A stretch of DNA of 64,000 bases from Schoenoplectus triqueter (taxonomy: Eukaryota > Streptophyta > Magnoliopsida > Poales > Cyperaceae). Below the pieces are notes generated by a model. The model worked only from the letters and a program-made list of their open reading frames with translations, was not told the DNA's origin and did not search any database. The position numbers and the translations under genes were made by a program. Numbering within the stretch: the first letter of the stretch is position 1; each line of letters begins with the position of its first letter. The stretch is from the NCBI GenBank assembly GCA_964058805.1, contig CAXKVV010000282.1:124001-188000 (forward strand), in the 5' to 3' direction. This document shows positions 15,040-61,689 of this stretch, piece after piece.

Positions 15040-15830
15040 CTTTCCAATTAGTGAGATTATACAATTAAATAATAAATAAAATTTATATTTATTCTACACA
15101 ATTAATCAACAACTAATCTATAATTATAATTAAATTAAATTATAATTAAAATCTAATCTATAATTAAATTATAATTAAAAGCTAATTAATCTATTCAACA
15201 ATTAAATAATAAATAAAATCTATAATTATTCTACCCAATTAATCAACAATTTATTTATAATTAAAATATAATTAAAAGCTAATTAATCTATTCTACAATT
15301 AGGGTTACTATATAATTAATCTATAAAAATAATATACAAATAATCTAATTATTCTACAATTAAAGTCTAATTAAATATATATTATTCTACAATAAAATTA
15401 ATACTTAATCTACAATTAAATAATAAATTAAATATATATTCTACAATCAATAATTAAATCCTAATTAATCTATTTTATAATTAAATAATAAATTAAATCT
15501 TTATTATTCTACATAATTAATCAATAATTAATCTATAATTAAATTATAATTAAACAATTCTACAATTTAATCTACAATTCTATATTATTCTACACAATTA
15601 ATTAATAATTAATCTATAATTAAATTATAATTAAATAATTCTATAATTATTCTATAATTAAATTATAATTAAAAGCTAATTAATCTAAATCTATAATTCT
15701 AAAATTTAAAAGCTAATTTTTAATTAATCTATATAATTTATAATTCATTCACAAATTAATTTATAATTTTATAATTTAAAATTAATATATATAATTTATA
15801 TTTCAATTCTAATTATTAAGATAAATAAAA
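15040..15830. repeat. AT-rich degenerate repeat tract inside the MULE
   Basis: Short units such as AATTAATCTA, CTACAATTAAATAATAAAT and TATAATTAAATTATAATT recur in shuffled order over almost 800 bp. The tract lies between the transposase remnant and the right terminal repeat. Its G+C content is extremely low. Confidence 0.7.
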
Positions 15831-27035: not shown

Positions 27036-30000
27036 TTTTTTTTTCATCCTTCCAATTGCATCTTCACTTCTTGTCAAGTCGAAGAAAATCTTAAAAATAA
27101 AAAAATTATAAATATAATTTTGAAATTGTAGATTATTTTCAATTTCATATAATCTAATTATTATATGGTAGTTCATGGAAAACATTATCAATGCAGTAGA
27201 ATACTAATACACAAAATAGATGTCAACCCAACGTGAGAGCCAATAAAAAATAAATGTCAACCCAGCGAATCACAATTAGCTCTCGCGATTGCTTAATACA
27301 ATTGCACGACGTCTATCGCCAACTTAATTTTTTTTTATATTTCCATACATAATTTTGTGAAAAATCATACGATACTCCTATTAATGTATATTAATTATTT
27401 TTATAATTAACTCTTAAATATGAATATTTCACGACAGTATTTTTATACATAACTTAATTCAGATGCATAAAAAAATAGTCTCAACAGGTTGTTTGAGTTT
27501 TTAATCATTTTTGACCTCATTACTGCTCATAAATTTGTATATATTCATATATTAGTCTTAATATTATTTATTATATCTTTTATAATTAAATATTCAATCT
27601 ACGACACTAATATTGCAAAAATTTTCATTCCGAAACATTAAAAATTGTTGGTTAAACAAGTTATTTGAATTTTTCATCATTTTAGCTCCATAAGTACTCA
27701 AAATTCATATAAATACTCCTAATTATGTTTATTATTACATTATTTAGTTAACTACTTGATATGAACATTTTATGACACAAATTTAGCTCAAAATTTCATC
27801 CGTATGCATTAAAAATTATAGTTTAAACAAGTTATTTGCATTTCTAATCTTTTTGGTCTCGTTTCTACACATAATTTTGGGCATAGTCGTAAGGACAAAT
27901 CTAATAATGTCTCTTAACTATTTTATGATTAATTTTTCAATGTGAATATTCTTCGATAATATTTTTGTCTAGACTTAACTCAAAAGAATTAATAACTATT
28001 GTCCTAAAAAGGTTGTTTGAGTTTTTAATCATTCTTTGTCTCATAACTGCTCATAAATTGATATAAATTCATATAAATACAGCTAATATTGTCTATTATA
28101 GATTTTTATAATTAAATATTTAATATGAAGATTCTACAACACTAATTTTGTACAAAAGGAAAATAAATTTTTTTTCATAACAATTATAGAACTTAATTGG
28201 GATGCGTTAAAAACAGAAGTTCAAATAATTTATTTGAGTTTTTTTTTATTTTTAACATCATAACTGCGCATAAATTAATGCAAATTGATATAAATAGTTC
28301 TAATTATGTCTATTATAAGATTTTTTAATTATCACTTCAAAATGAACATTCTACGATACTAATTTTGCTTAAAATTTTATCCGGACGCATTAAAAACTGA
28401 TGTTTAAATAAGTTATTTGCATTTTTAATCATTTTGTTCTCGTTTCTACACATAATTTTGTGAAAAGTCATACATATACTCTTATTAATGTCTATAAATT
28501 GTTTTTATAATTAACTCTTGAATACAAATATTTCACGATAGTATTTTCGCACATAACTAAACTCAATTGCATTAAAAATATCATCTCAACAAATTGTTTG
28601 AGTTTTTAATCATTTTTTGTCTCCTAACTTCTCATCAATTAATAAAAAAAATTATATTTTTTAATCATTTTGGCCTCGTTTCTTCACATAATTTCGTGCA
28701 AAATCGTATGTATTCCTCTAATAATGTCTATTAACAGTTTTTTATGATAAGCACTTCAATTGAATATTCTATGACTCCATTCTCGGACTAAACTGAACTC
28801 AAGCATTAATAAATTTTTGTTTAAACAGATTATTTGAGTTTTTAATCATTTTTTACCTCATAACAGCACATAAATTGGTGTAAATTCATATGAATACCCC
28901 TAATATTGTCTACTATATGTTTTTATAATTAAATATTCAGTATGAAGATTTCACGGCACTAATTTTACACAAAACTTAATTCAGATGAGTTAAAAATGAC
29001 AGTTTCAATAAGTTATTTGAGTTTTTCATCATTATTGGTCTCATAACTACATAAAATTTCGTATAATTTTATATAAGTACTCATAATTAAGTCTCTTTTA
29101 AGATTTTTTTTAATTTAGCATTTCAATACGAATATTTTACGACACTAATTTTGCACCAAACTTAATTATGATGAATTAATAACTGTTGTTTAAATTTATT
29201 GTTGGACTTGTTATTCATTTTTGACCTCATAACATCACATAGTTTCATACACATAATATCTATTATATTTTTATAATTAAATATTCAATAATTTTTTTTA
29301 CGATACTAATTTTATAAAAAACTTAATATTGATGCATTAAAAACTACTATTTTAAATATGTTATTTGAGTTTTTATTTATTTTGGCCTCATAACTGCACA
29401 TAATTTGGTTCAAATTCATATGAATACCTCTAATATTATCTGTTATATATTTTTATAATTAAATACTTAATATGAAGATTCTAATACACTAATTTTGCTC
29501 AAAATTTCATCCGGATACATTAAAAATAACTGTTTAAATAAGTTACTTGCTTTTTAATCATTTTGGTCTCATTTCTATACATAATTTTGTTCAAAGACGT
29601 ACATCTCCTAGTAATATCTATTAGTTATTTTATGATTAACTTTATAATTTGAATATTTAACGATAATATTTTTGGATTAAACTTAACTCAAAAGAATTAA
29701 TAACTGTTATTTAAACAGGTTGTTCGAGTTTTTTTTATCATTTTTACCTCATAACTGAATATTAATTGGTGCAAATTTATATGAATATCCCCAAATATTG
29801 TCTATTATATGTTTTATAATTAAATATTCAATATGAAAATCCTACGACACTAATTTTACGTAAAACTTAATCTGTATGCATTAAAAACCGCTATTTAAAT
29901 AAGTTCATTGCTTTTTAATCATTTTGGCCTCATTTCTGCATATAATTCCATGCAAAGTCATAGGTATACTCATAATAAAGTCTATTAACTATTTTTATGA

Positions 30001-32254
30001 TTAACTCTTCAATGTGAATATTTTATGATAATATTTTCTGTATAAACTTTACTCAAAAGAATTAATATCTATTGTTTGAACATTTTGATTGAGTTTTTAA
30101 TTACTTTTAGCCTCATAACTGCATTTAAAATGATACAAATTCATATGAATACCCCTAATATTATATATTATATTTTTTATAATGAATTGTTCAATATGAA
30201 GATCATACGATACTAATTTCGCAGAAAAGAAAAGAGCCCTTCTAAAAAATAATTGCAAAACTTAATTTGGGTGCATTTAACATAGCTGTTTAAATAACTT
30301 GTTTGAGTTTTTCATAATTTTTTGGCTTCATAACTAGACATAAATTCATGCAAATTAATATAAATATTTATAATTATGCCAATTATAAGATTTTTTTCAA
30401 TTAACACTTCAATATGAACGTTCTACGACACTAATTTTACTCAAAATTTCATCTGGACACATTAAAAACTACTGTTTAAATAAGTTGTTTGCGTTTTTAA
30501 TTATTTCGGCCTCTTTTCTACACATTTTTGTGCAAATTCGTATGGAGACTCATATTAATGTCTATTGACTATTTTATGATTAACTCTAGAATATGAATAT
30601 CGTACGACCATATTTTCTGTCTAAACTTATTTCAAAGCCTTAAGAATCGTTGTTGAAACAAGTTATTTTAGTTTTTAATTATTTTTTACCTCATAACTGC
30701 ACATAATTGGAGCAAATTCTTATGAATATAACTAATATTATCTATTATCTATTTTTATTATTAAATATTCAATATCAACATTATACGACACTAATTTTGC
30801 ACAAAACTTAGTTCATATGCTTTAAAATGGTTGTTTAAACAAGTTATTTGCATGTTTCATTATTTTCAGCCTCATAACTATACATAAATTCATGTAAATT
30901 AATATACATATTCGTAATCATGTCTATTATAAGATTTTCAATTAACACTTTTATATGAACATTCTACTACACTAATTTTGCTCAAAATTTCAACCGGACA
31001 CATCAAAAACTGCTGTTAAATAAATTATTTATGTTTTTAATCATTTCGGCCACATTTCTACACATAATTTGGTGCAAAGTCATACTGACGCTCCTACTAA
31101 TTTCTATTAGCTATCTAATGATTAACTCTTTAATATGAATACTATACGACACTATTTTCTGAATAAACATAACTAAAAAACCTCAATAACTGTTGTTTAA
31201 ATAAGTTATTTAAATTTTTAATTATTTTTTCCACATAACTGCACATAACTAATAATTGCTGCAAATTCATATGAAAACAACTAATAATTTCAATTGTATG
31301 TTTTTGGAATAAAATATTTAATTTGAATTCTACGATACTAATTTCTAATTATGTCTATTAAAAGATTTTTCAATTAACACTTCAATATGAACATTCTACG
31401 ACACTAATTTTACTCAAAATTTCATCCGGACACATTAAAAACTATTGTTTAAACAAGTTATTTATGTTTTTACTTATTTTGGCCTATTTTCTACATAATT
31501 TTGTGCAAACTCATACGGAGACTCCTAATAATGTCTATTCACTGTTTTATGATTAACTCCATAATATGAATATCGTACGATCATATTTTTTTGTCTAAAC
31601 ATAATTCAAAGCCTTAATAACTATTGTTTAAATAAGTTATTTTAGTTTTTAATTATTTTTTACCTCATAAATGTACATAATTGGTGCAAATTCATATGAG
31701 TACAACTAATATTATCTATTATATATTTTTATAATTAAATGTTCAATATGAACATTATATGACACTAATTTTGCACAAAACTTAATTCAGATGCATTAAA
31801 ATGGTTGCTAAAATAAGTTATTTGTATGCACAAAACTATACATAAATTTATAAAAGTTAATATAAAAATTCTTAATTATGTCTATTATAAGATGTCTAAT
31901 TAAAACTTTAATATGAACATTGTACTACACTATTTTTGCTCAAAATTTCAACCAGACACATCAAAAACTGCTGTTAAATAAGTTATTTGTGTTTTTAATC
32001 ATTTCAGCCTCATTTCTACACATAATATGGTGCAAAGTCATTAGAGACACTCCCAATAATTTTTTATTAACTGTCTTATGATTAACTCTTGAATATGAAT
32101 ACTGTACGACACTGTTGTTTAAACTTAACTCGGTGCAAAGTCTTCTGAATAAACTTAACTAAAAAAACCTTAATAATTATTGTTTAAACAAATTATTTAA
32201 ATTTTTAATTATTTTTATCTCATAACTGCACATAAATTGGTGCAACTTCATATG

Positions 32255-32588
32255 TAGAGGTGGCAATCGGGCGGGTCGGGTCGGGTTCGGGTTCGGGTCG
32301 AGCGGGTCGGGTCAGTTTGACTTTCTGGAAGAAATCAGGTCGGGCCGGGTCGGGTCAGGGTCGGGTCAATTTACATGTTGTGTTTTTTCAGATCGTTGAT
32401 AGATTTCGATTGGATTGAAGGCCATTTGATCTCGGGTCGGGTCGGGTCAGGTCGGGTTCGGGTCGGGTCGGGTCTGTTTGACTTTCTTAAAAAATCGGGT
32501 CGGGTCGGGTTCGGGTCCGGGCGGGTCGGGTTCGGGTCCGGGCGGGTCGGGCGGGTTTGTCGGGTCGGGTCGGGTTCTGCCACCTCTA
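32255..32588. mobile_element. hAT MITE with GGGTC-repeat interior, inserted in the satellite
   Basis: The ends are perfect 11-bp inverted repeats, TAGAGGTGGCA. The element is flanked by the perfect 8-bp duplication TTCATATG, which is part of the satellite subunit. The inside consists mainly of two blocks of GGGTCGGGTTCGGGTC-type repeats around a short unique centre. TAGRGGTGGCAA ends with GGGTCGGG interiors are common among plant hAT MITEs. The open frames on both strands are only translations of the repeat. Confidence 0.93.
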
Positions 32589-35500
32589 TTCATATGAATA
32601 CAACTAATCTTTTCAATTGTATGTTTTTGGAAAAAAATATTCAATATGAATTCTACGACGCTAATTTTGCATAAAACTTAATTCATACGCCTTAAAAACT
32701 GTTTAAACAAATTATTTGAGCTTTTTTTATCATTTTTGGCCTCATAACTATACATTAACTCATTCAATTTAATGTAAAAAACTCAAAATTAAGTTTCTTT
32801 TAAAATTTTCTGATTAACACTTCAACAGGAACATTTTACGACACTAATTTCACAAAATACTTAATTTTGATGCATTAAAAAGCTTTTTAAAAAGGATGTT
32901 TAAGTTTTTCATCATTTTGGGCCTCATAACTAAACATAACTTCATACAAATTCATACAAAAACTCTTAATAATATCTATTATATGTTTTTATAATTAAAT
33001 ATTTAATATGAAGATTCTATGACATTATTTTGTTCAAACTTTATTCTGATGCATTAAAAACTACTGTTTAAACAAGTTATTTATGTTTCATATTATTTTA
33101 GTACTCATAATTCATGAAAATTCCTATAAATAATTCTAATTATGTCTATTATTAGTTTGTCTAGTTAACTCTTTAATATGAACATTTTACGATACTGATT
33201 TTGCTCAAAAGATCAGCCAAATGTATTAAGAATTGTTGTTTGTTTAGTTGTTTGCATTTTTTTAATCATTTTGGTCTCATTTTCTGCACATAATTTTGTG
33301 CAAAGTCGTACATATTCTCCTAATAATGTATATTAACCATTTTTTATGATTAGCTCTTGAATTGAATATTCTATGACTGCATTCTTGGACTAAACTTAAC
33401 TCAAAAGCATTAATAACTGTTTGTTTAAACATGTTGTTTGAGTTTTTAATCATTTTTTACTTCATAATGGCACATAAATTGGTGTAAAATTTATATGAAT
33501 ACCCATAAAATTGTCTACTATATGTTTTTATAATTAAATGTTAAGTATGAAGATTCCACAGTACTAATTTTACACAAAACTTAATTCAGATGTGTTAAAA
33601 CGGCTCTGTGCAAATTTATATGAATACAAATAATATTATTTATTACATGTTTTTATAATTAAACACCAATATGAACATTCTACGATACTAATTTTGCACA
33701 AAATTTTATTCCAATGCATTAAAAATGGTTGTTTAAACAAGTTGATTGAGTTATTCATCATTTTTGGCCTCATAACTACACATAATTTCATGCAAATTAA
33801 TATAATTATTTTAATTATGTCTATTATATGATTTTCTAATTAACACATAAATATGAATATTATATGACACTAATTTGCTCAAAACTTCATCTAGACAAAT
33901 TAAAATCTTTTGTTTAAATAAGATGTTAGTATTTTTAATCTTTTTGACCATATTTCAACACATAATTTTGTGCAAAAATTGTACGGATACTCCTACTAAT
34001 ATCTATTAACTATTTTTATGATTAACTCTTGAATAAGAATATTCTATGACAGTATTTTCTAACTAAACTTAACTCAAAAGCCTTAATAATTATTGTTTAA
34101 ACAAGTTTTTTTGACCTTTTAATCATTTTCAATCTCATAAATAGACATAAATTGGTGCAAATTAATACGAATACAACTAGATGTTTTTGGAACTAGATGT
34201 TCAGTATGAATATTTTACGACACTAATTTTGCATAAAACTTAATTCGAATTCTTAAAAAATTGTTGCATAAATAAGTTGGTTGAGTTTTTTTAAACTTTT
34301 TTGGCCTCAAAACTACACAAAAATTCATATAATTTAATATAAACACTCATAAATTTATAGATTTTCCAATTAACGCTTCAATTCAAATATTTTGCAACAC
34401 TAATTTTATAAAAAAATAATTATAATGCATTATAAAGCTATTTATAAAAAAAAGTTTGAGGTTTTCATCATTTTTGGCCTCATAACTTAACATAACTTCA
34501 TACAAATTCATATGAAAAGTCCCAATAATATCTAGTAAACGTTTTAATAGTTAAATGTTAAATATGAAGATTCTATGATACTAATTTTGCTCAAAATTCA
34601 TGCAAATTCTTATAAATAATCCTAATTATTTCTATTGATAGTTTGTCCAATTAACTTTTTAATATAAACATTCTACAACACTGATTTTGCTCCAAGTTCA
34701 TCAAAAACTACTGTTTAAACAAGTCGATTTTGGTTTTAATCTTTTTAGTCTCATTTCTATGCATCATTTCGTGCAATGTCATTTGTATTCTCCTAGTAAT
34801 GTCTTTTTAACTATTTTTATTATTAACTCTTCAATTGAATATTCTACGTGCATTTTCGGACTAAACTTAACTCAAAAGCACTAGCCATTGTTGTTTAAAC
34901 ATGTTGTATGGGTTTTTAATCATTTTTTGTCCATAACTGCACATAAATTGGTGCAAATTCATATGAATACCCTTAAATTTGTCTATTGTATTTATGTTTA
35001 TATAATTAAATATTAAATATGAAGATTACACGATACTAATTTTACATTAAAATTAATTTGAATGCATTAAAGATGGTTGTTTAAATAAGTTATTTGAGTT
35101 TTTCATCATTGTTGGTTTCGTAACTACACAAAAATTCATGCAATTTGATATAAATACTCATAATTGTCTCTTTTAAGATTTTCAATTTAACACTTCAATA
35201 CGAAATTTTTATTGTACTAATTTTGGACCAAACTCTTTTCAGCCTCATAACCTAATTATGCACAAAACTTAATTTGAATGTAAAACTGCTGCTTAAATAA
35301 GTTGTTTGAGTTTTTTTATCATTTTAGGCTCCATAAGTACTCAAAATTCTTGCAAATTCATATAAATACTCCTAATTATATCCATTATTAGTTTGTCTAA
35401 CTAACTCTTTTATATGAATATTCTACCACACTAATTTCATTCAAAAATTAATCCGGATGCATTAAAAAACTGCTGTCTCAAGAAGTTATTTGCGTTTTTA

Positions 35501-38500
35501 ATCATTTTGGTATCAGTTCTACACATAATTTCGTGCAAAGTCATATGTATACTCCTTATAATGTGTATTAACCATTTTATGATTAACTCTTTGATGTGAA
35601 TATTCTACGATAATATTTTCAGACTAAATTTAACTCTAAATAATTAATAACTGTTGTTTAAAGAGTTGTTTGAGTTTTTAATCAGTTTGGACCTCATAAC
35701 TGCACATAAATTGGTACAAATTCATATGAATACCTCTAACATTTTTTATTATATATTTTTATAATTAAATGTTCAATATGAACATTCTATAACATGAATT
35801 TAGCTCAAAATTTCATCCGGATGCATTAAAATTATAGTTAACAAGTTGTTTGCATTTCTAATCAGTTTGGCCTCGTTTTTACAAACAATTTCGTGCAAAG
35901 TCATAAGAATAAATCTAATAATATCTATTAACTGTTTTAATAATTAAATCTTCGATGTAAATATTCTATGATAATATTTTCGGACTAAACATAACTCAAA
36001 AGAATTAATAGTTGTTGTCTAAAAAGGTTATTTGAGTTTTTAATCATTTGTTTGCCTCATAATTGCTCATAAATTGATGCAAATTCATATGAATATCCCT
36101 AATATTTTCTATTATATGTTTTTATAATTAATTAATATGAAGATTTTACAACACTAATTTTATACAAAAAGGAAAAGAATCATTTTCATAACAATTGCAA
36201 AACTTAATTTGAATGCATTAAAAACAATTGTTGAAATAAGTTATTTGAGTTTAACTGCGCATAAATTTATGCTAATTGATATAAATATTCTTAGTTATAT
36301 CTATTATAAGATTTGTTAATTAATATTTCAATATGAACATTCTACGACACTATTTTTTGTCAAAACTTCATCAAGCCGCATTAAAAACTGCTGTTTAAAC
36401 AAGTTGTTGGCATTTTTAATTATTTTGGTCTTATTTCTACACATAATTTTGTGGAAAGTTGTATAGATACTCAGATGCATTAAGTTTTTTCTCCTAACAA
36501 TGTCTATTAACTGTTTTTATGATTAACTCTTCAATTTAAATATTCTACGATAGTATTTTCGTACATAACTTAACTCAGATGCATTAAAAAATATTGTCTG
36601 ACAAGTATTTGAGTTTTTAATCATTTTTATCCTCTTAACTGCTCATAAATCTTCAGTATGAAAATTCTACGGCACTAATTTTACACAAAACTTAATTTGG
36701 TGTCATTAAAAACTGTTGTTTAAATATGTTATTTAAGTTTTCATCTTTTTGACTCCATAAGTACTAAAATTCTTGCAAATTCATCTATATACTCCCAATT
36801 ATGTCCATTATTAGTTTGTTCAATTAACTATTTAATATAAATATTCTACGATATTAATTTTGCTCAAACCTTCATCCGCATGCGTTAAAAACTACAATTT
36901 AAACAAGTTATTTGCGTTTGTAATCATTTTGGCATCGTTTCTAAACACAATTTTATGCAAAAAAAAAATTACAGATACTTCTAATACTGTCTATTAACTA
37001 TTTTTATGATTAAGTTTTCAAGGTGAATATTCTATAATAGTATTTTTACACATAACTTAGATGTACTAAAAAAATATTGTCTCAACCAATTGTTTGAGTT
37101 TTTCATCATTTTTGGCCTCATAACTGCTCATAAATTTGTGCAAATTCATATATTATACTCTTAATATTGTCTACTTTATCTTTTTATAATTAATTCAATG
37201 TGAAAAATCTTTGACACTAAAATTGCACAAAATTTAATTTGGAAGCATTAAAAATTGTTTGTTTAAACTGGTTATTTGAGTTTTTCATCATTTTTAGCTC
37301 CATAAGTACTCAAAATTCATGTAAATTCATATAAATATTCCTAACTATGTTTACTATTATTTTTTTCAGTTAACTACTTAATATGAATATTCTATCACAC
37401 AAATTTAGCTCAAAACTTCATCCGGATGCATTAAAAACTATAGTTTAAACAAGTTATTTGCATATCTAAACTCTTTGGCCTCGTTTCTACACATAATTTT
37501 GGGCAAAGTCGTAAGGATAAACCTAATAATGTCTCTTAACTGTTTTATAATTAAATCTTCAATGTGAATATTCTACGATAATTTTTTCAAACTAAATTTA
37601 ACTCAAAAGAATTAATAATTGTTGTCTAAAAAGATTTTTTGCCTCATAGCTGCTCATAAATTTAATGCAAATTCATATGAATATCCCTAATATTGCCTAT
37701 TATATATTTTTATAATTAAACATTTAATGTGAAGATTTTACAACACTAATTTTATAAAAAAAATTAAAGAGTCCTTTTCATAACAATTGCAAAACTTAAT
37801 TTGGAATTGATAATAACAGCTGCTCAAATAAGTTATTTGAGTATTTTTATTATTTTTGGCGTCATAATTGCGCATAAATTCATACAAATTGATATAAATA
37901 TTCTTAATTATGCCTATTTTAAGATTTATTAATTAACACTTCAATATGAACATTCTATGACACTAATTTTTCTCAAAACTTCATCTGGACGCATTAAAAA
38001 CTACTGTTTAAACTAGTTATTTGCATTTTTAATTATTTTGGTCTTGTTTCTACACATAATTTTGTGGAAAGTCATACAGATACTCCTATTAATGCCTATT
38101 AACTATTTTTATGATTAATTCTTGAATATGAATATTCCACGACAGTTTTTTCGTACATAACATAATTTAGGTGTATTAAAAAAATGTTGTCTCAACAAAT
38201 TATTTGAGTTTTTAATCATTTTGTCCTCATTACTGCTCATAAATTTGTACAAATTCATATATTATAGTCTTAATATTATTTACTATATCTTTTATAATTA
38301 AATATTCAATTTGAAAAATTCTATGACACTAATATTGCAAAAACTGAATTCTGAAGCTTTAAAAACTATTGTTTAAACATGTTATTTGAGTTTTTCATCA
38401 TTTATGGCTCCATAAGTACTCAAAATTCATGTAAATTCATATAAATACTCATAATTATGTATAATATTACTTTGTTCAATTAACTACATAATATTAACAT

Positions 38501-41500
38501 TATATGACACGAATTTAGCTCAAAACTTCATCTGCATGAATTAAAAACTGTAGTTTAAACAAGTTGTTTACATTTCTAATCTCTTTGGCCTTGTTTCTAC
38601 ACATAATTTTGGGGAAATCATAAGGATAAACCTAATAATGTCTCTTAACTGTTTTTAGGATTAACATTTCAATGTGAATATTCTTCGATAATATTTTTGA
38701 ACTAGACTTATCTCAAAAGAATTAATAACTATTGTCTAAAAAGGTTGTTTTTGTTTTTAATCATTTTTGCCTCATAACTGCTCATAAATTGATGCAAATT
38801 CATATGAATGCACCTCATATTATCTATTATAGTTTTTTATAATTAATTATTAGTATGAAGATTTTACAATACTAATTTTGTACAAAAGGAAAAGAATTAT
38901 TTTTCATAAAAATTGTAGAACTTAATTGGGATGCGTTAAAAACAGATGTTCAAATAAGTTATTTGAATTTTTTATTATTTTAACATCATTACTGCACATA
39001 AATTAATGCAAATGAATACAAATAGCTTAATTATGTCTACTACAAGATTTTGTTTAAATTATCACTTTAAAATGAACATTTTATGATACTAATTTTGCTC
39101 AAAATTTCATTCAGACACATTAAAAACTGATGTTTAAATATGATATTTGCATTTTCAATCATTTTGATTTCAATTTCTACACATAATTTTGTGGAAAGTC
39201 GTACAGGTACTCCTATTAATGTCTATAAATTGTTTTTATAATTAACTCTTGAATATAAATATTCCACGATAGTATTTTCATACATAACTAAACTCAGGTG
39301 CATTAAAAAATATTGTCTCAACAAGTTGTTTGAGTTTTTAATCATTTTTGGCCTCGGACCTTCTCAGAAATTTGTAAAAGTTGTTTGCATTTTTTAATCA
39401 TTTTGGACTCATTTCTGCACATAATTTGTGCTAAGTCATACATATTATACTAATAATGTATATTAACTGTATTTATGATAAGCTCTTCAATTGAATATTT
39501 TATGGCTCCATTATCGGATTAAACTGAACTCAAAAGCATTAATAAATGTTTGTTTAAATGGGTTGTTTGAGTTTTTAATCAGTTTTGGCCTCATAACAGC
39601 ACATAAATTGGTGTAAATTCATATGAATACCCCTAATATTGTCTACTATATGTTTTTATAATAAAATGTTCAGTATGAAGATTCTATGACACTAATTTTT
39701 CACAAAACATAATTCAGATGCGTTAAAAAGGGTTGTTTGAATAAGTTATTTGAGTTTTTCTTCATTGTTGGCCTCATAACTACATAAAAGTTCATACAAT
39801 TTTATATAAGTACTCATTATTAAGTCTCTTTTAAGATTTTTCAATTTAGCATTTCAATACAAATATTTTATGACACTAATTTTGCACCAAACATAATTCT
39901 GATGAATTAATAACAGTTGTTTAAACTTGTTGTTAGACTTGTTATTCATTTTTTGCCTCATAACAGCACATATTTTCATACACATAATATATATTATATT
40001 TTTATAAAATAAATATTCAATAAGAAAATACTACGATACTAATTTTATAAAAAAAATAATTTGGATGCAATAAAAACTATTATTTTAAAAATTTTATTTG
40101 AGTTTTTAATTATTTTGGCCTCATAACTGCACATAAATTGGTTTAAATTCATATAAATACCTCTAATATTATCTATTATATATTTTTATAATTAAATGTT
40201 CAATATGAAGATTTTAATACACTAATAGTTGTTTAAATAAGTTGTTTGCTTTTTAATCATTTTGGTCTCATTTTTACACATAATTTTGTTCAAAGACTCT
40301 CCTAGTAATGTGTATTATTCATTTTTATGATTAAGTTTTCAATGTGAATATTTTATGATAACATTTTGGACTAAGCTTAACTCAAAAGAATTAATAACTG
40401 TTATTTAGACAGGTTGTTTGACTTTTTTTTATCATTTTTTACCTCATAACTGAACATTAATTGGTGCAAATTCATATGAATACCCCAAATAATATCTATT
40501 ATATGTTTTAATAATTGAATATTTAATATGAAAATCGTACAACACTAATTTTGCTCAAAACTTAATCTATATGCATTAGAAACTGCTATTTAAACAAGTT
40601 CGTTGCTTTTAATCATTTTGGCCTCATTTCCACATATCCATGCAAAGTCATACGTATACTCCCATAATTCCACATATAATTCAATGTGAATATTTTCTGA
40701 TAATAATTTCTGAATAAAATTTAATCAAAAGAATTATTATCTGTTGTTTGAACATGTTGTTTGAGTTTTTAATTATTTTTAGCCTCATGACTGCATTTAA
40801 AATGATGCAAATTCATATGAATACCCCTAATATTGTATATTATATATTTTTATATTTAACTGTTCAATATGAAAATTCTACGATACTAATTTTGCAGAAA
40901 AAATAGCGCTTTTCAAAATAATTGAAAAACATAATTTGGGTGCAATAAACACAGCTGTTTAAATAAGTCGTTTGAGTTTTTTTTATAATTTTTGACTTCA
41001 TAACTAGACATAAATACATATAAATTAATATAAATATTTTTAATTATGCCTATTATAAGATTTTTTAATTAACACTTCAATATGAACGTTCTACGACACT
41101 AATTTTTCTCAAAATTTCATCCGGACACATTAAAAACTACTTTTTAAACAAGTTGTTTGCGTTTTTAATTATTTCGGCCTCTTTTTCTACACATTTTTGT
41201 GCAAATTCGTATGGAGACTCCTAATAATGTCTATTGACTGTTTTATGAATAACTCTAGAATATGAATATCGTATGACCATATTTTCTGTCTAAACTTAAT
41301 TCAAAGCCTTAAGAATTGTTGTTTAAACAAGTTATTTTAGTTTTTAATCATTTTTTACCTCATAACTGCACATAATTGGAGAAATTCTTATGAATACAAC
41401 TAATATTATCTATTATATATTTTTATAATTAAATATTCAATATCAACATTATACGATACTAATTTTGCACAAAACTTATCAGATGCTTTAAAATGGTTGT

Positions 41501-44500
41501 TTAAACAAGTTGTTTGCATGTTTCATTATTTTCAGCCTTATAACTACCTTATAACTATAAATAAATTCATGTAAATTAATATATATATTCGTAATTATGT
41601 CTATTATAAGATTTTCAATTAACACTTTCATATGAACATTCTACTATACTAATTTTGCTCAAAATTTCAACCGGACACATAAAAAACTGTTGTTAAATAA
41701 GTTATTTGTGTTTTTAATCATTTCGGCCACATTTCTACACATAATTTGGTGCAAAGTCATACAAACACTCCCAATAATTTCTATTAGCTATCTAATGATT
41801 AACTCTTTAATATGAATACTGTACGACACTATTTTCTGAATAAATATAACTAAAAAACCCTCAATAACTGTTGTTTAAATAAGTTATTTAAATTTTTAAT
41901 CATTTTTTACCACATAACTGCGCATAACTAATAATTGCTGCAAATTCATATGAAAACAACTAATAATTTCAATTGTATGTTTTTGGAATAAAATATTTAA
42001 TTTGAATTCTACGATACTAATTTTGCACAAAACTTAATTCATATGCATTAAAAATAGTTGTTTAAACAAGTTATTTGAGTTTTTTTTATCATTTTTGGCC
42101 TTATAATTACATATTAACTCGTTCAATTTAATGTAAAAAACTCAAAATTAAGTCTTTTTTAAAATTTTCTGATTAACTCTTCAACAAGAACATTTTACGA
42201 CACTATTTTCGCAAAATACTTAATTCTGATGCATTAAAAAGCTGTTTAAAAAGGATGTTTGAGTTTTTCATCATTTTGGGCCTCATAACTTAACATGACT
42301 TCGTACAAATTCATACGAAAACTCCCAATAATATCTATTATACGTTTTTATAAATAAATATTAAATATAAAGATTCTACGATATTAATTTTGTTCAAACT
42401 TTATTCTGATGCATTAAAAACTTCTGTTTAAACAAGTTATTTAAGTATAGCATTATTTTAGGCTCCATAAGTACTCACAATTCGTGCAAATTCATGTAAA
42501 TAATCCCAATTATGTCTATTATTAGTTTATCTAGTTAACTCTTTAATATGAACATTTTACGATACTGATTTTGCTCAAAAGATCATCCGGATGCATTAAG
42601 AACTGCTGTTTGTTTTGTTGTTTGTATTTTTTATAATCATTTTGGTATCATTTCTGCACATAATTTTGTGCAAAGTCGTATGTATTCTCCTAATAATGTC
42701 CATTAACTATTTTTTTGTGATTAGTTCTTGAATTGAGTATTCTATTACTGCATTCCCGGACTAAATTTAACTCAAAAGCATTTGTAACTGTTTGTTTAAA
42801 CAGGTTGTTTGAGTTTTTAATCATTTCGGCCTCATAACAACATATAAATTGGTGTAAATTCATATGAATACCCATAATATTGTCTACTATATGTTTTTAT
42901 AATTAAATATACAGTATGAAGATTTCATGGTGCTAGTTTTGCACAAAACTTAATTCAGATGAGTTAAATGACTCTTTGAATAAGTTATTTGAGTTTTTCA
43001 TCATTGTTGGCCTCATAACTATAAAAGTTCAAACATTTTTATATAAATACTTATAATTAACTCTCTTTTAAGATTTTCAATTTAGCACTTAAATACGAAC
43101 ATTTTACAACACTAATTTTGCACAAACTTAATTTCGATGAATTTATAACTATTGTTGGACTTGTTATTCATTTTTGACCTCATAACAGAACATAGTTTCA
43201 TATACATAATATCTATCATATATTTTTATAATTAAATATTCAATAAAAAATTCTACGATACTAATTTTATAAAAAAACTTAATTTGGATGCATTAAAAAC
43301 TGCTATTTTAAATATGTTATTTGAGTTTTTAATTATTTTAGGCTTAATAAGTACTCAAAATTCGTGCAAATTGATATAAATACTCTTAATTTTGTTTATT
43401 ATTAGTTTGACCAACTAACTCTTTTATATGAACATTCTACGACACTATTTTTTCTCAAAACTTCATCTGGATGCATTAAAAATTGCTGTTTATAGAAGTT
43501 GTTTGTGTTTTGAATCATTTTGGCATCATTTCTATACATAATTTCTTGCAAAGTCGAACTACTAATAATGTATACTAACTATTTTTATTATTAACTCTTC
43601 GATGTGAATATTCTACGATAATATTTTCGGACTAAACATAACTCAAAAGAAGTAATAACTGTTGTTTAAACATGTTGTTTGAGTTTTTAATCATTTTGAC
43701 CTTATAACTGCACATAAATGGATGCAAATTCATATGAACGTCTTTATATTATTTATTATATATTTTTATGATTAAATGTTCAATATGAAGATTCTACGAT
43801 ACTAGTTTTGCTCAAAACATCATCCAGATGCATTAAAAACTGCTGTTTAAATAAGTTATTTTAATCGTTTTGGCCTCATTTCTACACATAATTCCTTGCA
43901 AAGTCGTATGTGTACTCCTAGTAAATTCTATTAATTGTTTTATAATTAATTTTTCAATGTGAATATTCTACTACAATATTTTCAGACTAAAATTACCTCA
44001 AAAAATAATATTTATTGTTTAAACATGTTGTTTGATTTTTGATCATTTTTTACCTCATAACTGCATATTAATTGGTTCAAATTCATATCAATACCCCTAA
44101 TATTATATATTATATATTTTTATAATTAACTGTTCAATATGAAGATTCTACGATACTAATTTTGCACAAACGAAAAGGAGCCCTTTTCATAATAATTGAA
44201 AAACTTCATTTGGATGCATTAAAAACAACTGTTTAAAAAATTTGTTTGATTGCTTCATAATTTTTGGTTTGATAATACATATAAATTAGTGCAAATTGAT
44301 ATACATATTTCTAATTATGTCTAGTATAAGATTTTTCAACTAAAACTTCAATATGAACGTTCTACGATACTAATTTTGATCAAAATTTCATCCAAACGCA
44401 TTAAAAACTGTTGTTTAAACCAGTGATTTGTGTTTATAATTATTTTGGTTGTGTTTCGACATAATTTTGTGAAAATTCATTCGGAAACTCCTAATAATGT

Positions 44501-47500
44501 CTATTAACCGTTTTATGATTAATTCCTGAATATAAATACTGTACAAAATTTTTTCTGACTAAACTTAAAAGCCTACATAACTATTGTTGAAACAAGTTGT
44601 TTGAGTTTTTAATCATATTTATCCTCGTAACTGCAAATAAATTGGTGAAATTTATATGAATACAACTAATATTGTTTATTACATATTTTTGTAATTAAAT
44701 GTTCAATATGAACATTCTACAATACTAATTTGCACAAATTTTTATTCCAATGCATTAAAAACGGTTGTTTAAACAAGTTGATTGAGTTATTCATCATTTT
44801 TGGTCTCATAACTACACATAATTTCATGAAAATTAATATAAATATTTCTAATTATGTCTATTATGTGATTTTTCTAATTAATACTTCAATATGAACATTT
44901 TATGAAATCTCCTAACTTTTAACTGTTTTTACTATTAACTCTTCAATTGAATATTCTACGTGCATTTTTGGACTAAATTTAACTCAAAAGCATTAGCCAT
45001 TGTTGTTTAAACATGTTGTATGGATTTTTAATCATTTTTGGTCCCATAACTGCACATAAATTGGTGCAAATCATATGAATTTTGCATCAAACTTAATTCA
45101 GATGCATTAAAGATGGCAGTTTAAATAAGTTATTTGAGTTTTTCATCATTGTTGATCTCGTAACTACACAAAAATTCATGCAATTTGATATAAATACTCA
45201 TAGTTATGTCTCTTTTAAGATTTTCAATTTAACACTTCAATATGAATTTTTTACTGCACTAATTTTGCACCAAACTTAATTCTGATGTATTAATAAATGT
45301 TGTCTAAACTTGTTGTTGGAGCTTCTGATCATTTTCGGCCTCATAATCGAATATTGATTCATACAAATTCGTAGAGGAAATTCTTGCAAAACTTAATTTG
45401 AATGTAAAACTGCTGCTTAAATAAATTGTTTGATTTTTTCATCATTTTAGACTCTATAAGTACTCAAATTCTTGCAAATTCATATAAATACTCTTAATTA
45501 TGTCTATTATTAGTTTGTCTAACTAACTCTTTTATATGAATATTCTACCACACTAATTTCATTCAAAAATTAATCCGGATGCATTAAAAAACTGTTGTCC
45601 AAAGAAGTTGTTTGCGTTTTTAATCATTTTGGTGTCAGTTCTACACATAATTTCGTGCAAAGTCATACGTATACTCCTTATAATGTCTATTAACCATTTT
45701 ATGATTAACTCTTTGATGTGAATATTCTATGATAATATTTTCGGACTAAATTTAACTAAAAATAATTAATAATTATTGTTTAAAGAATTGTTTGAGTTTT
45801 TAATCAGTTTGGACCTCATATCTGCGGATAAATTGGTACAAATTCATATGAATACCTCTAACATTGTTTATTATATGTTTTTAATATTAAATGTTCAATA
45901 TGAACATTCTATGACATGAATTTAGCTCAAAATTTCATCCGGATGGATTAAAATTATAGTTAACAAGTTGTTTGCATTTCTAATCAGTTTGGCCTCGTTT
46001 CTACAAATAATTTCGTGCAAAGTCATAAGAATAAACCTAATAATATCTCTTAACTGTTTTAATAATTAAATCTTCAATGTAAATATTCTATGATAATATT
46101 TTCGGACTAAACATTACTCAAAAGAATTAATAGCTGTTGTCTAAAAAGGTTATTTGAGTTTTTAATCATTTGTTTGCCTCATAACTGCTCATAAATTGAT
46201 GCAAATTCATATGAATATCTCAAATATTTTCTATTATATATTTTTATAATTAAATATTTAATATGAAGATTCTACAACACTAATTTTATACAAAAAGGAA
46301 AAGAGTCATTTTCATAACAATTGCAAAACTTAATTTGAATGCGTTAAAAACGGTCGTTCAAATAAGTTATTTGAGTATGACTGCGCATAAATTCATGCCA
46401 ATTGATATAAATATTCTTAATTATGTCTATTATAAGATTTGTTAATTAACACTTCAATATAAATATTCTACACACTATTTTTTCTCAAAACTTCATCTGG
46501 CCGCATTAAAAACTACTGTTTAAACAAGTTATTGGCATTTTTAATTTATTTGGTCTTGTTTCTACATAATTTTGTGGAAAGTTGTATAGATACTCTTATT
46601 AATGTCTATTAACTATTTTTTATGATTAACTCTTGAATATGAATATTCCACGATAGTATTTTCATACATAACTTAACTCAGGTTCATTAGAAAATATTGT
46701 CTCAACAAGTTATTTGAGTTGTAATCATTTTTGGCCTTGTAACTTCTCATAAAATTGTACAAATTCAGATAGATACTCTTAATATTGTCTATTATATATT
46801 TTTAATATTAAATTTTAATATTAAAATTCTACGATACTATTTTCGCACAAGAAATAATTCATGAAGCATTAAAAACTATTTTTTTAAACGCGTTATTTGT
46901 GTTTATCATCATTTTTGGCTCTATAAGTACTCAAAATTCATGTACATTCATAAAATACACCGAATTATGTAAATTTTTAGCTTATCCAATTAACTATCTA
47001 ATATGAATATTTTATGACATTAATTTTGCTCAACATTTTATCTGGATGCATTAAAAACTTCTGTTTAAACAAGCTATTTTTCGTTTTTAATCACTTTGGC
47101 TCTGTTTCTACAAATAATTTTGTGCAAGGTCATACTGATACTCTTAATAATGTTTATTAACTATTTTTATGATTAACTCTTTACTTTGAATATTCTACGA
47201 TAGTATTTTAGCACATAACTTGACTCGGATGCATTAAAAAATATTGCTCCACAAGTTGTTTGAGTTTTTAATCATTTTGTCCTCATAACTGCTCATAAAT
47301 CTTCAGTATGAAAATTCTACGGTACTAATTTTACACAAAACTTAATTCGGTGTCATTAAAAACTATTGTTTAAATAAGTTATTTAAATTTCTCATCTTTT
47401 TTGACTCCATAAGTACTAAAATTCATGCAAATTCATCTATTTACTCCCAATTATGTCCGTTATTTGTTTGTTCAATTAACTATTTAATATCAACATTCTA

Positions 47501-50500
47501 TGACATTAGTTTTGCTCAAACCTTCATCCGCATGTATTAAAAACTACAGTTTAAACAAGTTGTTTGCGTTTATAATCATTTTGGCGTCGTTTCTAAATAA
47601 AGTTTTATGTGAAAAAAGTACGAATACTTCTAATAATGTCTATTAACTATTTTTATGATTAAGTATTCAAGGTGGATATTCTACAATAGTATTTTTGCAC
47701 ATAACTTAGATGTACTAAAAAATATTGTCTCAACAAGTTGTTTGAGTTTTTAATCATTTTTGGCCTCATAATTACGCATAAATCTGTGCAAATTCACATA
47801 TTATACTCTTAATATTGTCTATTATATATTTTTATAATTAAATATTCAATATGAAAAATCAACGACATTAAAATTGCACAAAATTTAATTTGGAAGCATT
47901 AAAAACTGTTGTTTAAATAGGTTATTTGAGTTTTTCATCATTTTTGGCTCCATAAGTACTCAAAATACATGTAAATTCATATAGATATTTCTAACTATGT
48001 CTACTATTACTTTGTTCAGTTAACTACTTAATATGTACATTCTATGACATAAATTTAGCTCAAAACCTCATCCGGATGAATTAAAAACTGTAGTTTAAAC
48101 AAGTTATTTGTATTTCTAAACTCTTTGGCCTCGTTTCTACACATAATTTTGGGCAAAGTCGTAAGGATAAACCAATGTCTCTTAACTATTTTTATAATTA
48201 AATCTTCAATGCGAACATTTTATGATATTTTTTTCAGACCAAACCTATCTCAAAAGAATTAATAATTGTTGTCTAAAAAGATTTTTTGAGTTTTTAAAAT
48301 TTTTTTGCCTCATAACTGCTCATAAATTTATGTAAATTCATATGAATACCCCTAATATTATCTATTATATATTTTTATAATTAAACATTTAATTTATAAC
48401 ACTAAGGTTTTACAAAAGGAAAAGAGTCATTTTCATAACAATTGCAAAACTTAATTTGGAAGAGTTAATATAGTTGTTAAAATAAGTTATTTGAGTTTTT
48501 TATTATTTTTGGCGTCATAACTGAGCGTAAATTCATGTAAATTGATATAAATATTTCTAATTATGTATATTATAATATTTTAATTCTGATTCTAATATAA
48601 ACGTTCTACGACACTAATTTTGCTCAAAATTTCATCTGGACGCATTAAAAGTTGTTGTTTAAATAAGTTTTTTTGCATTTTTCAATCAATTTGGTCTCGT
48701 TTCTATACATAATTTTAAGGAGTGTCGTACAGATACTCTTATTAATATCTATTAACTATTTTTATGATTAATTGTTAAATATGAATATTCCATGATAATA
48801 TTTTCGCACATAACTTAACTCGGGTGCATTAAAAAACAGTCTCAACAAGTTGTTTGAGTTTTTAATCATTTTTGGCCTCGTAACTTCTCATAAATTTGTA
48901 CAAATTCATATATATACTCTTAATATTATCTATTATATGTTCTATAATCAAACATTCAATACCAAAATTCTACGATACTATTTTTGCACAAAACTTAATT
49001 CAAGAAGCATTAAAAACTATCTTTTTGATGTTGAGATTGAGCACTAACCTTTTTTATTGCCAAGTTGCATTTTTGAAACAAGTTATTTGAGTTTATCATC
49101 ATTTTTGGCTCTAAGTACTCAAAATTTATGTACATTCACATAAATACTCTTAATTATGTATATTATTAGCTTATCCAATTAACTATCTAATATGAATATT
49201 TTTCAACACTAATTTTGCTCAAAATTGTATCTAGATGCATTAAAATTGTTGTTTAAACAAGTTATTTGTGTTTTTAATCACTTCGGCTCCGTTTCTACAA
49301 ACAATTTTGTGCAAGGTCATACAGATACTCCTGATAAAGTATTTAACTATTTTTATAATTAACTCTTCAATTTGAATATTCTACGATAGTATTTCCGTAC
49401 ATAACTTAACTCAGATGCATTAAAAGGTACTACTTCAACAAGTTATTTACATTTTCAATCATTTTTGTCCTCATAACCGATCATAAATCTTTAGTATGAA
49501 AATTCTATGACACTAATTTTACATAAAACTTAATTCATTATCATTAAAAATTATTGTTTACACAAATTATTTAAGTTTTTTTTATCTTTTTGGCTCCATA
49601 AGTACTCAAAATTAACGCAAATTCATGTATATACTCCCAATTATTTTCATTATTAGTTTTTACAATTATTTTTTTAATATGAACATTCTACGATATTAAT
49701 TTTGATCAAATGCCCATCCGCATGAATTAAAAACTACAATTTAAACAAGTTGTTTGCATTTGTAATCATTTTGGCGTCGTTTCTACACAGGGTTTTATGA
49801 AAAAAAGTATGGATACTTCTAATAATGTGTATTAATTATTTTTATGATTAATTCTTCAATGTGAATATTCTATGATAGTATTTTTTGCATATAACTTAGA
49901 TAGATTAAATAAATATTATTTTAACAAGTTATTTGAGTTTTTTAATCATTTTTGACATCATAACTGCTCATAAATATGTGCAAATTCATATATTACACAA
50001 TTAATATTATCTATTATATCTTATTATAATTAAATATCCAATATAAAAATTCTATGACCCTAATATTACATAAAGTTTAATTCAGAAGCATTAAGAACTG
50101 TTTCTTAAACAAGTTATTTGAGTTTTTCTTAATTTTTGGCTCCATAAGTACTCAAAATTAATGTAAATTCATATAAGTACTGCTAATTATGTCTACTAGT
50201 TTGTTCAGTTAACTACTTAATATGAACATTCTATAAGATAAGTTTTGCTCAAAACTTCATCTGGATGCATTAAAAACTGTAGTTTAAATAAGTTATTAGC
50301 ATTTCTAATCATTTTGGCCTCATTTCTACACATATTTTGTGCAAAGTCGTAACGATGAACCTAATAATGTCTCTTAACTTTTTTTTTCTAATTAACTCTT
50401 CAATGTTATTATTCTACAATAATATGTTTGGACTAAACTTAAATCAAAAGAATTAATAACTATTGTCTAAAAAGGTTGTTTGAGTTTTTAATCATTTTTT

Positions 50501-51612
50501 ATCTCGCAACTGCTCATAAATTGATGCAAATTCATACGAATACACCTTATATTGTCTATTATGTATTTTTAAAATTAAATATTTAATATGATGATTCTAC
50601 AACACTAATTTTGTACAAAAAGAAAAGAATCCATTTCATAACAATTGCAAAACTTAATTTGGATGCGAATAAATGTTCAAATAAGTTATTTGAGTTTTTT
50701 ATTATTTTAGGTGTCATAACTGTGCGTATATTCATGTAAATTATTATAAATATTTCTAATTATGTCTGTTATAAGATTTTTTTAATTATCACTTGAATAT
50801 GAACATTTTACGATGCTAATTTTGGTCAAAACTTCATCCGGACGCATTAAACACTGCTGTTTAAACAAGTTGTTTTATTTTCAATCATTTTGGTCTTATT
50901 TCTACACATAATTTTGTGAAAAATCGTATAGATACTTCTATTAATGTCTATTAACTACTTTTATGATTAACTCTTGAATATGAATATTCCATGATAGTAT
51001 TTTTCACACAAAACTTAACTCTGGCGCATTAAAAATTATTGTCTCAACAAGTTGTTTGTGTTTTTAATCATTTTTGACTTCCTATCTTCTCATAAATTTG
51101 TACAAATTTATATAAATACTCTTAATATTATCTAGTATATATTTATATAATTCAATATTCATTATCAAAATTCTACAATACTAATTTTACACGAAACATA
51201 ATTCGTGAAGAATTAAAAACTATTTTTTTAAACAAGTTATGTGAGATTATCATCATTTTTGGCACTATAAGTACTCAAAATTCAAGTACATTCATATAAA
51301 TACTCCTTATTATGTACATTATTAACTTATCCAATAAACTAAAAAAAATATGAATATTTTACGATACTAATTTTGCTCAAAGCTTTATCTTGATGCATTA
51401 AAAACTGTTGTTTAAACAAGTTATTTTTATTTTTAATCACTTTGGCTCCGTTTCTACAAAGAATTTTGTCTAAGGTCATATGGATACTTCTAATAATGTC
51501 TATTATGTGTTTTTATGATTAACTCTTCAATTTGAATATTCTATGATAATATTTTCACACATAACTTAACTCAAATGCCTTCAATGTGAATATTTTACGA
51601 TAGTATTTTCAC

Positions 51613-52802
51613 GGGCAATTTAATAAAATGCCCTTCTTCATAAATTTTTATAACAAAATACCCTTCCCTCCAAATTCTTTAACAAAATATCCTTGACCCA
51701 TTTAAAATTATCTACCATGATTAATAGAGGGGGTGAGGATCTTAATTCTATGGTTATATCTTAAATGCACAATCCTAAATTAATTAACATACTTTTAATG
51801 AGTGATCGATGCTAGCATGAATTTAAACTAAACTATATAGTAAGCTTAACTAGAAACTTTGTTAATTAAGTTACAAATAAAAAATTTAAACTGTTAAAAC
51901 CAATTTAACTTTTAATAATGTGTTAAATAACTTTGTTAATTCTTACTTTATTATTTGTAAATCGAAGTGGCTAAACTTGATTAAAATGACTTATCAAGCT
52001 TTAGTTTTCGCACTTATCGACTTTTTAATTGAATGAAATTAAAAAAATTTAAATATATCACTTATAAAGTAAAGTATATCGGTTATGATAATTTTGGCTT
52101 AATTCACTCTTAGGGGTCTAGTAGTTCTGGGATTATGCTTATACTGTTATGCATGATAAAATTCTATATATGAAAATTCATCAATCAACTTTGTTGAATC
52201 TATGTGCATAGAAAATGCACAAAAATGATATCGAGGGGGTAGACACTATAGTTTGTTTATATTGTGGCCCTATGAGAAATTTCATCTTTCTTTTTGAAAT
52301 TCTAGATATTATTTCTATTTTTTACTAATAATATTGTTTAAATGAAATGATAATTATTTTTATTCATGTTTTTTTAAATTATGATAAATATTAAGGAAAT
52401 AGTGAAAATAATTAAAAAATGATGAAAAATAATTATTATTAATTTAATTTAAATAAAAAATTAATTAAGTGATCTTTAACAAAATTATATCTTGAAAATA
52501 AAATTTTGCCAATAATTTGTGATAATTGGAAGACTAATAAAATTTGTCGAATGGTTTAGCTATTATTTATTAAGAGGGTAGACTAATAAACTCCATAAGG
52601 CCCAGTGCAAAGGCCATTCAAAACCCTAATTAAACCAATCTGATAATTGAAAGACTAATAAAATTCAAAACCCTAGTTAAACTATCGCTAATTATGATAG
52701 ATAATTTTAAATGGGTCAAAAAAAGTATTTTGTTACAGAATTTGGAGGGGATGACATTTTATTATAAAAAAATTATGAAGAAGGTAATTTTGTTAAATTA
52801 CC
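51613..52802. mobile_element. 1.2-kb element with ~113-bp inverted ends, inserted in the satellite
   Basis: The left end starts GGGCAATTTAATAAAATG and the complement of the right end starts GGTAATTTAACAAAATTA. The similarity runs for about 113 bases through TCCAAATTCT and GACCCATTTAAAATTATCTA. The interior is AT-rich, has no recognised gene and contains no satellite. Long terminal repeats of this kind suggest a nonautonomous Mutator-like element. No clear 9-bp target duplication is visible, and about 45 bp of the satellite subunit seem lost at the right junction. Confidence 0.82.
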
Positions 52803-53633
52803 TTTTAAACAAATTATTTGAGTTTTTCATCATTTTTATTCTCGTAGCCACACATAAACTCATGAGAATTAATGTAAATACTCCTAATAATGTCTATTAA
52901 CTATTCTTATGATTAACTCTTTAATGTGAATATTTCGTAATGGTATTTTCGAACATCACTCTGATACATTAGAAATTATTGTCTCAACAAGTTTTTTAGT
53001 TTTTAATTATTTTTACTTCATAACTGTACATAAATTTATACAAATTCATATAGATGCTCCTAATATTATGTAATATATATTTTATAATTAAATGTTCAAA
53101 ATGAAAATCTTATGACACAAATTTTCTACAAAACTTCATGCGTATGCATTAAAAACTGTTGTTTAAATAAGTTATTTGAGTTTTATCATTTTTGACCTCA
53201 TGATTGAACATAAATTTGTGCAAATTCATATAAATACTTATTATTATGTCTACTATTAGTTTTCTCAATTAATTATTTAATATAAATATTTTATGAAACT
53301 AATTTTTCCCAAAACTTTATCCTGATGTAATAAAAACTCTTGTTTAGACAAATTATTTGTATTTTTTTAATCATTTTGACCTTATTTCTACATATAATTT
53401 ATTATAAAGTTATACAAATACTTTTAGTAATGTCCATTAACTATTTTTATGATTAACTCTTCAATATGAATATTCTACAATAGTATTTTCGCACATAACT
53501 TAACTCAGATGCATTAAAAAAATATTGTTTCAATAAATTATTTGAGTTTTTAATCATATTGGGTCTCATAACTGCGCATAAACTGGTGCAAATTTTTAAA
53601 CAATAGTATTTTCGCACATAACTCATCTCTATC

Positions 53634-54440
53634 TCTATCTCTATTCCTTATTAAGCACATAAGCGTCATGATCTTGCAACAATCCAGATTTTTTTTTTGT
53701 TTAATTTTCAGAGCTAATATCAGTCATCATATTGAGTTATTCGTCAAATAATATTACTATCTCTATGAACATTTCTGTTAAAATTATAATTTTCTCTTAA
53801 TTTTGATTGTTATATGAAATATTACATAATTTAGGAGTACAATTGCTTTATTTTATTTTTTCTTAGATTACCATTAATTATGAATTTTAAATTTTCTTAA
53901 ATTCTGAATATCTACTTCACTTTTGAACAAATATCCAATCAGAATTTATTACTAAAACGACATCACGCCCAAACTTTAGCAACATAGAGTTAATCAGTGA
54001 CTAGTATCTTGTTGTGCATTGTTATGGTAATATCTTTTTAAAATATAAAAATTTATATCTTTGAAAGGAAAAAAAATAAAAATAAAGATAATTTAATAAT
54101 TAATATAAATTTCAATCATGAGTACATAATTAATGTAAAATAAATATAAAATTGAGAAAAAAGTTGACATTCGGAATTTAAAAAAAAATAAAATTCATAA
54201 TTGATGGTCTAAGAAGAAAATAAAGTAGATCAATTGTACTCTTAAATTATATACCATTTTGTATAATAATCAAAATTGAAAGAATTATAATTTCATCACA
54301 AATGACCATAGAGATAGTAACATCATTTGACGGATAACTCAATTCGATAACAATATTAATTCTAGAATTCAATTAAAAATTTGAAATATTGTAGGATGAG
54401 AATACTTACATGCTTACTAAGAAGTAGAGATAGAGATATG
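53634..54440. mobile_element. Foldback element at the right edge of the satellite
   Basis: Left CATCTCTATCTCTATCTC and the complement of the right end, CATATCTCTATCTCTAC, are matching ends. The arms stay complementary for about 270-300 bases, including GAGTTATTCGTCAAAT-like and GAGTACAATTG-like stretches. No coding capacity was found. It separates the last recognisable satellite sequence from the beta-glucosidase 3' flank. Confidence 0.82.
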
Positions 54441-54609: not shown

Positions 54610-61074
<6,465 letters not shown>

Positions 61075-61292: not shown

Positions 61293-61320
<28 letters not shown>

Positions 61321-61325
<5 letters not shown>

Positions 61326-61689
61326 GTGAGCTTAAATTCACGGAGACCTTCCGTGAGCTTAACTCAAAAAATATATCAAATCATCTCCAAATTTTAATTT
61401 ATTATTCTCATTAAATTCTTTATATGAAAATCTCATAGGATACAAAAATTTAGAGTGTTTTGAGCTTTTTAAGTCATGGTTTTTAATTTTTGAAAATCAA
61501 CTCTAAAAATAATAATAAAATATTTAATATTTGAACATCATTTTAGAAAATTAAAAACGATGAGTTAAAAAGCTCAAAACACTCTAAATTTTTACATCCC
61601 ACAAGATTTTCATATAAAAAATTTAATGAGTATGATAAATTAAAATTTGGAAATAATTTAATTTATTTTTTGAATTAAGCTTATCTTTA

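Follow-up and report, generated by a model that had tools for sequence, protein, structure and literature searches.

The window analysed here, a 64,000-base stretch of Schoenoplectus triqueter DNA (positions 124001-188000 of contig C277, which has 484,461 bases in an assembly of 82 Mb and 2,086 contigs), holds a 26-kb tandem array lying between genes. This leads to the question what kind of satellite the array represents, and whether it is or ever was part of a centromere. Its monomers were located with a hidden Markov model (HMM) seeded with the array's own copies. The model gave 148 rows, 138 of them at 30 bits or more, all on the plus strand and within 27354-53580; rows below 30 bits were removed ahead of clustering, and the two rows beyond the array edges scored 3.0 bits or less. 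Some of the 138 stretches are partial monomers. The median spacing is 182 bp (122 spacings), and GC content is about 25% (25% also in the majority consensus of 414 monomers). As in satellite DNA, the array is thus head-to-tail, non-coding and tandem, with 138 stretches on a single strand over 26 kb, and its subunits are nucleosome-sized, as a sequence-only reading had stated. The array and its neighbours are as follows.

20215..24978, plus strand: left-hand neighbour, exons of a CDK5RAP3-like gene (three open reading frames match PF05600)
27354..53580, plus strand: satellite array of ~182-bp monomers in A-B-C order, with classes A, B and C plus the minor x (monomer HMM and clustering)
32255..32588, no strand assigned: insert of 334 bp, 60% GC (ends and duplication located)
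51607..52809, no strand assigned: insert of ~1.2 kb with terminal inverted repeats, edges approximate (inverted-repeat arms I1-I3; monomer matches end on both sides)
53630..54438, no strand assigned: inverted-repeat element just beyond the right array edge (inverted-repeat arms)
54613..56653, minus strand: right-hand neighbour, exons of a glycosyl hydrolase family 1 gene (three open reading frames match PF00232)

The two intact genes that had been claimed as neighbours are represented by exons matching CDK5RAP3 on the left and glycosyl hydrolase family 1 on the right. As a correction to the earlier reading, the array is interrupted by two inserts. The ends of the 334-bp insert, which we take to be hAT-like, match in inverted order at 11 of 12 bases and are bordered by an 8-bp target duplication at 32247-32254 and 32589-32596. 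Further left of the CDK5RAP3-like exons, an O-fucosyltransferase reading frame and copia-type retroelement reading frames were found, the latter with reverse transcriptase and gag matches at 435-4213, close to the window's left end; one reading frame further left of the array gave no match. The stretch 15113-15800 is very AT-rich and carries short imperfect tandem repeats with periods of ~7 to 81 bp. A dispersed repeat flanks the array on both sides (11690-12059 and 61315-61683, 86% alike) and is also present near the array of contig C1289. Rfam and tRNA scans of the window yielded no matches. One GRAS protein encoded elsewhere in the assembly places the plant among the sedges, outside Rhynchospora. 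Besides a 100% JGI match and a 78% match, both lacking a species label, its nearest named relatives are Rhynchospora proteins (69-72% over almost the full length) and one of Carex littledalei (88% over 56%); over the part they have in common, the Carex protein differs equally (88%) from that of Rhynchospora pubera and from the query. A small tree groups the query with Carex and one further unlabelled protein, apart from four Rhynchospora proteins and the outgroups (support 0.988). A plastid marker search gave a single short fragment.

Monomer classes were obtained by average-linkage clustering on pairwise identity alone, blind to order, with the tree cut at four clusters: A (45 monomers), B (50), C (34) and a minor cluster x (9). 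Read along the array, the labels run ABCABC, with A>B, B>C or C>A steps at 107 of 137 junctions; 10,000 shuffles of the class order gave 39.7 such steps on average and never more than 58. The array therefore consists of distinct monomer classes in a fixed order, as is typical of higher-order repeats, and a simple tandem repeat is ruled out. Of the 30 off-order junctions, eight are B>x, seven B>A, six x>B, three each A>A and B>B, two x>C and one x>x. Mean identity within classes A, B and C is 0.76-0.78, and between them 0.65-0.70; 12 alignment columns are diagnostic, each class having a majority above 75%. The periodicity of three that clustering had been proposed to reveal is also seen in the mean monomer identity at lags 3, 6 and 9 (0.734, 0.733 and 0.728), which exceeds that at lags 1 and 2 (0.681 and 0.692). 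Class HMMs built on monomers 1-70 gave the same A, B or C label as the clustering for 64 of 64 monomers of the second half, a check that is not fully independent because the second half largely copies the first; the four x monomers of that half were scattered among the classes. The opening words by which the three types had originally been told apart fall where expected, CATAACTGC in class A (18/21), CCATAAGTACTC in class B (7/8) and CGTTTCTACAC in class C (5/5).

A trimer near 540 bp had been proposed as the true basic unit. The trimer exists, with a length near 545 bp, but it is not the largest unit. Monomer-by-monomer self-alignment of the array gave one path of 58 pairs, from 27354/38061 through 39188/50913, and showed that a super-unit of roughly 10.6 kb, present in about 2.4 copies, makes up the array.

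27354..38059, plus strand: super-unit, first copy (monomer-level self-alignment, 58 pairs)
38061..48712, plus strand: super-unit, second copy (monomer-level self-alignment)
48717..53580, plus strand: super-unit, third copy, partial, paired with the second copy up to the monomer at 50913 (monomer-level self-alignment)

Both members belong to the same class in 58 of 58 pairs, and their mean identity is 0.884 versus 0.766 for other same-class pairs (95th percentile 0.845). In 41 of the 58, at least one member has its partner as best match. The two members lie 57 or 58 monomers apart in 30 pairs and between 52 and 66 apart overall. Six pairs near 33.6-34.6 kb are just 0.73-0.78 identical, and this part was therefore replaced or is misaligned. 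At 88%, the copies fall short of the near-identity expected of multi-monomer units, and the earlier view of a diverged array no longer under homogenisation is supported. Applying the rate of 7e-9 used for retrotransposons in the available text of PMC9835760, a divergence of 12% would correspond very roughly to 8-9 million years.

The assembly contains further arrays of this 182-bp family. A family 24-mer gave 439 matches with up to two mismatches, and its backwards control none. The family occurs on at least 26 contigs: C277 (the window's own), C1289, C233, C597, C1809, C1233, C429, C151, C1934, C2057, C295, C695, C491, C459, C358, C335, C229, C490, C2062, C103, C113, C149, C201, C757, C1142 and C1916, where C103, C113, C757, C1142 and C1916 are assigned by 24-mer matches alone. 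Fourteen of the 26 were read at least in part, and the contig counts are lower bounds. Contigs C1289 and C233 share 4,193 identical flanking bases and are probably one locus assembled twice; C113 and C149 have a 3,539-bp spacing in common and C695 and C491 have equal scores, so that probably about 23 independent loci are represented. The family is thus a tandem satellite with arrays at several loci, and the named dispersed repeat that would have spoken against this was not found.

To compare the arrays, the class models of the window (A, B and C) were applied to those of other contigs and in-order junctions were counted. The A-B-C order is present in C1289 (14/15), C233 (11/11, 46/52 and 4/6), C597 (11/15), C1809 (35/54 and 18/29), C429 (14/23; shuffle mean 7.9) and C1934 (16/41; 10.6). 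It is near chance in C2057 (16/53 and 13/40; shuffle means 12.7 and 10.2), C1233 (8/36 and 12/49; 9.4 and 12.3) and C151 (6/42; 5.3). All monomers of C295 are class B, with 0 of 47 junctions in order, and in short reads of C149, C2062 and C201 (21, 3 and 14 monomer stretches) none scored best as A. An unrooted tree was built from 414 monomers: those of the window that reach 150 bp, plus monomers from ten other contigs after removal of near-identical copies. One split of 87 (support 0.974) contains all 43 window A monomers together with monomers of C1934, C233, C1289, C597, C1809 and C429. All 41 window B monomers fall in a split of 119 (support 0.906) that includes 18 of 18 from C295, and all 33 window C monomers in a split of 174 (support 0.79) that includes every C2057 and C151 monomer and 44 of 65 from C1233. 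Six other contigs, representing five loci, contribute to all three splits, from which we conclude that the trimer is older than the separation of these arrays. By the same tree, the C2057, C151 and C1233 arrays appear to be C-side derivatives or to go back to an older pool. The proposed trimer thus stands as an old unit common to other arrays, and the window array has its own larger one on top of it.

Arrays other than the window's also carry array-specific higher-order repeats, for example of 1.8-3.8 kb, some of them 99.5-100% identical. The main spacings are 1,835/1,836 in C2057, 2,202 in C295, 2,300 in C233, 3,795 in C1809, 6,282 in C1934, 8,162 in C1233, about 1,800 and 2,813 in C151, and 3,539 in C113 and C149. 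The identity of adjacent copies was determined for five contigs. It is 99.46-99.84% (four comparisons) and 99.83-100% (three) in C2057; 99.5, 100 and 92.98% in C295; 96.01, 99.66 and 99.76% in C1809; 100, 87.69, 73.32 and 76.93% in C233; and 95.11-96.32% (three comparisons) in C151.

A model that would account for these observations starts with three monomer lineages A, B and C of ~182 bp, joined as a trimer ahead of the separation of the arrays. Unequal exchange or copying within arrays may then have amplified different multi-monomer blocks locus by locus, which would explain why copies are near-identical, periods are locus-specific and the old classes still stand in order. The last such round in the window array would have produced the unit of roughly 10.6 kb, now present in about 2.4 copies, which would since have drifted by ~12%; the array also holds two inserts. 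At some other loci, where copies are 99.5-100% identical, amplification has been recent. An alternative is that the 182-bp repeats form the tandem interior of a transposable element copied around the genome. A dispersed repeat does border arrays on C2057 and C2062 and, in two places, on C233, its best pieces being 76-88% alike, but it has no match in the window flanks at E 1e-10, and period and array length vary between loci, so that this already disfavoured explanation is very improbable. The border repeat in C233 was also considered as a retroelement and rejected, having no long terminal repeats and short frames only, none clearly coding.

We consider it fairly probable that the window array is old and has ceased to be homogenised, within a family that is most likely a centromere-type or heterochromatin satellite, and that this array between the genes is most likely retired. 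The family itself is probably, though not provably, centromere-associated; the putative link is drawn from unit size, homogenisation and a place in satellite-rich DNA, and the resemblance to plant centromere satellites seen in the sequence-only reading would hold by analogy. The A/T steps show a rhythm of 10.1-10.2 bp in four arrays and of 10.8 bp in C1233, with no such peak in two flanks. The 182-bp length and the 10.1-10.2 bp rhythm are weakly suggestive of nucleosome packing, because the arrays are homologous and not independent. Dyad symmetries have been linked to centromere satellites in the available text of PMC11538461. They are not generally enriched in the 182-bp family, where just two of nine stretches lay at least 2 SD above shuffles, in both cases for the longer arm length: C233 with z 3.5 and window 32600-51580 with z 2.2; in the window flanks, dyads were far above shuffles.

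The surroundings of the C2057 array bear on the same question. From this contig (1.49 Mb), 40 samples of 800 bp each were taken outside the stretches read before. A 58-bp satellite, with a consensus of 62% GC, fills 23 of the 40 samples, and the 182-bp family was found in none of them. The 182-bp array has matches from 1,139,170 to 1,203,522 (partly read) and again at 1,227,186-1,230,237; the samples at 1,130,001 and 1,235,001 are 58-bp repeat, and those at 1,215,001 and 1,222,001 are neither satellite. One 182-bp array thus sits inside GC-rich 58-bp satellite. In C1809, 648 bp of the 58-bp repeat occur within 300 bases after the array. The 58-bp satellite was also seen in C79 and C22 (755 kb and 1.0 Mb) and is absent from the window. 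The GC-rich DNA of C2057 was also considered as 45S rDNA, which was rejected after 20 samples gave no Rfam match, and so was a 29-bp half unit within the 58-bp satellite (lags 28-30 no better than shuffles).

The far more abundant 58-bp satellite could itself be the centromere repeat. Its 23-mer has 51,941 near-exact matches in the assembly (backwards control 0), against 439 for the 24-mer of the 182-bp family, a rough comparison given the different words. The 182-bp family would then be a non-centromeric heterochromatin satellite, the centromere being formed by the 58-bp satellite or by satellite-free chromatin, and the A-B-C order a mere by-product of unequal exchange. The share of C2057 samples filled by the 58-bp repeat and the lack of general dyad enrichment point in this direction, but the 182-bp family is nucleosomal in length and its higher-order repeats were recently homogenised at several loci. 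We regard this explanation as possible, if considerably less than probable.

The sedge family is known for holocentric chromosomes, and a 26-kb array between genes in such a plant could also be a working centromere unit, comparable to the Tyba domains between genes in holocentric Rhynchospora. Tyba, a 172-bp holocentromere satellite, is likewise AT-rich, of similar unit length and from the sedge family, and forms similarly sized domains of about 20 kb among genes (available text of PMC11538461 and PMC5049389). However, the copies in the window are just 88% alike and contain inserts, while other arrays are nearly uniform. Two published Tyba primers, covering 49 of its 172 bases, matched the window array no better than shuffles and lend no support to Tyba identity. 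In the Luzula data available in PMC11538461, arrays without CENH3 average 20 kb, versus 94-189 kb with CENH3, and in one satellite those without it are less alike between arrays. The window array would, by analogy, fit this picture of CENH3-free arrays. A working unit in the window is quite unlikely on these grounds, and a retired array remains the preferred reading.

Among other described repeats, Lusy2 of Luzula (174/175 bp, with two variants 62% alike) and JR2 of Juncus (181 bp), both from the sister family and compared by description only, have a similar unit length; a point of difference is that the JR repeats are gathered at a single site on each chromosome (available text of PMC11538461 and PMC9526063). 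The Carex satellites CR1-CR3 (31, 29 and 30 bp) are from a sedge and dispersed over all chromosomes, but their quite different unit length sets them apart from the 182-bp family (PMC9526063, available text). The family appears under no name in the available main text of PMC9526063, PMC11583847, PMC11538461, PMC11251425, PMC9835760, PMC10959549 and PMC5049389, supplements and most subscription papers lying outside this scope, and none of six satellite words occurred in the papers searched. Plant satellites with higher-order repeats are a known kind; the 182-bp sedge family itself was not found described.

Primate alpha satellite is organised in suprachromosomal families and higher-order repeats. 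The sedge family resembles it in its nucleosome-sized AT-rich monomers, its few old classes in fixed order, its array-specific higher-order repeats and its diverged arrays beside homogenised ones. It differs in its plant host, its trimeric ancestral unit and its putative centromere role, and no sequence relation is claimed. As a tentative and rather unlikely extension, the sedge may have independently evolved an alpha-satellite-like centromere system with three ancestral classes, array families (A-B-C, B-only and C-side) and locus-specific higher-order repeats, in which arrays of the C2057 type would be working and those among genes retired. In the available text on related sedges, the centromere repeat of Eleocharis is called still to be elucidated (PMC11583847) and centromere predictions for Bolboschoenus are heterogeneous (PMC10959549). 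The 182-bp family supplies ready FISH and ChIP probes, and its readable monomer lineages and array-specific higher-order repeats may allow the birth, spread and decay of arrays to be ordered in a plant family with diffuse centromeres.
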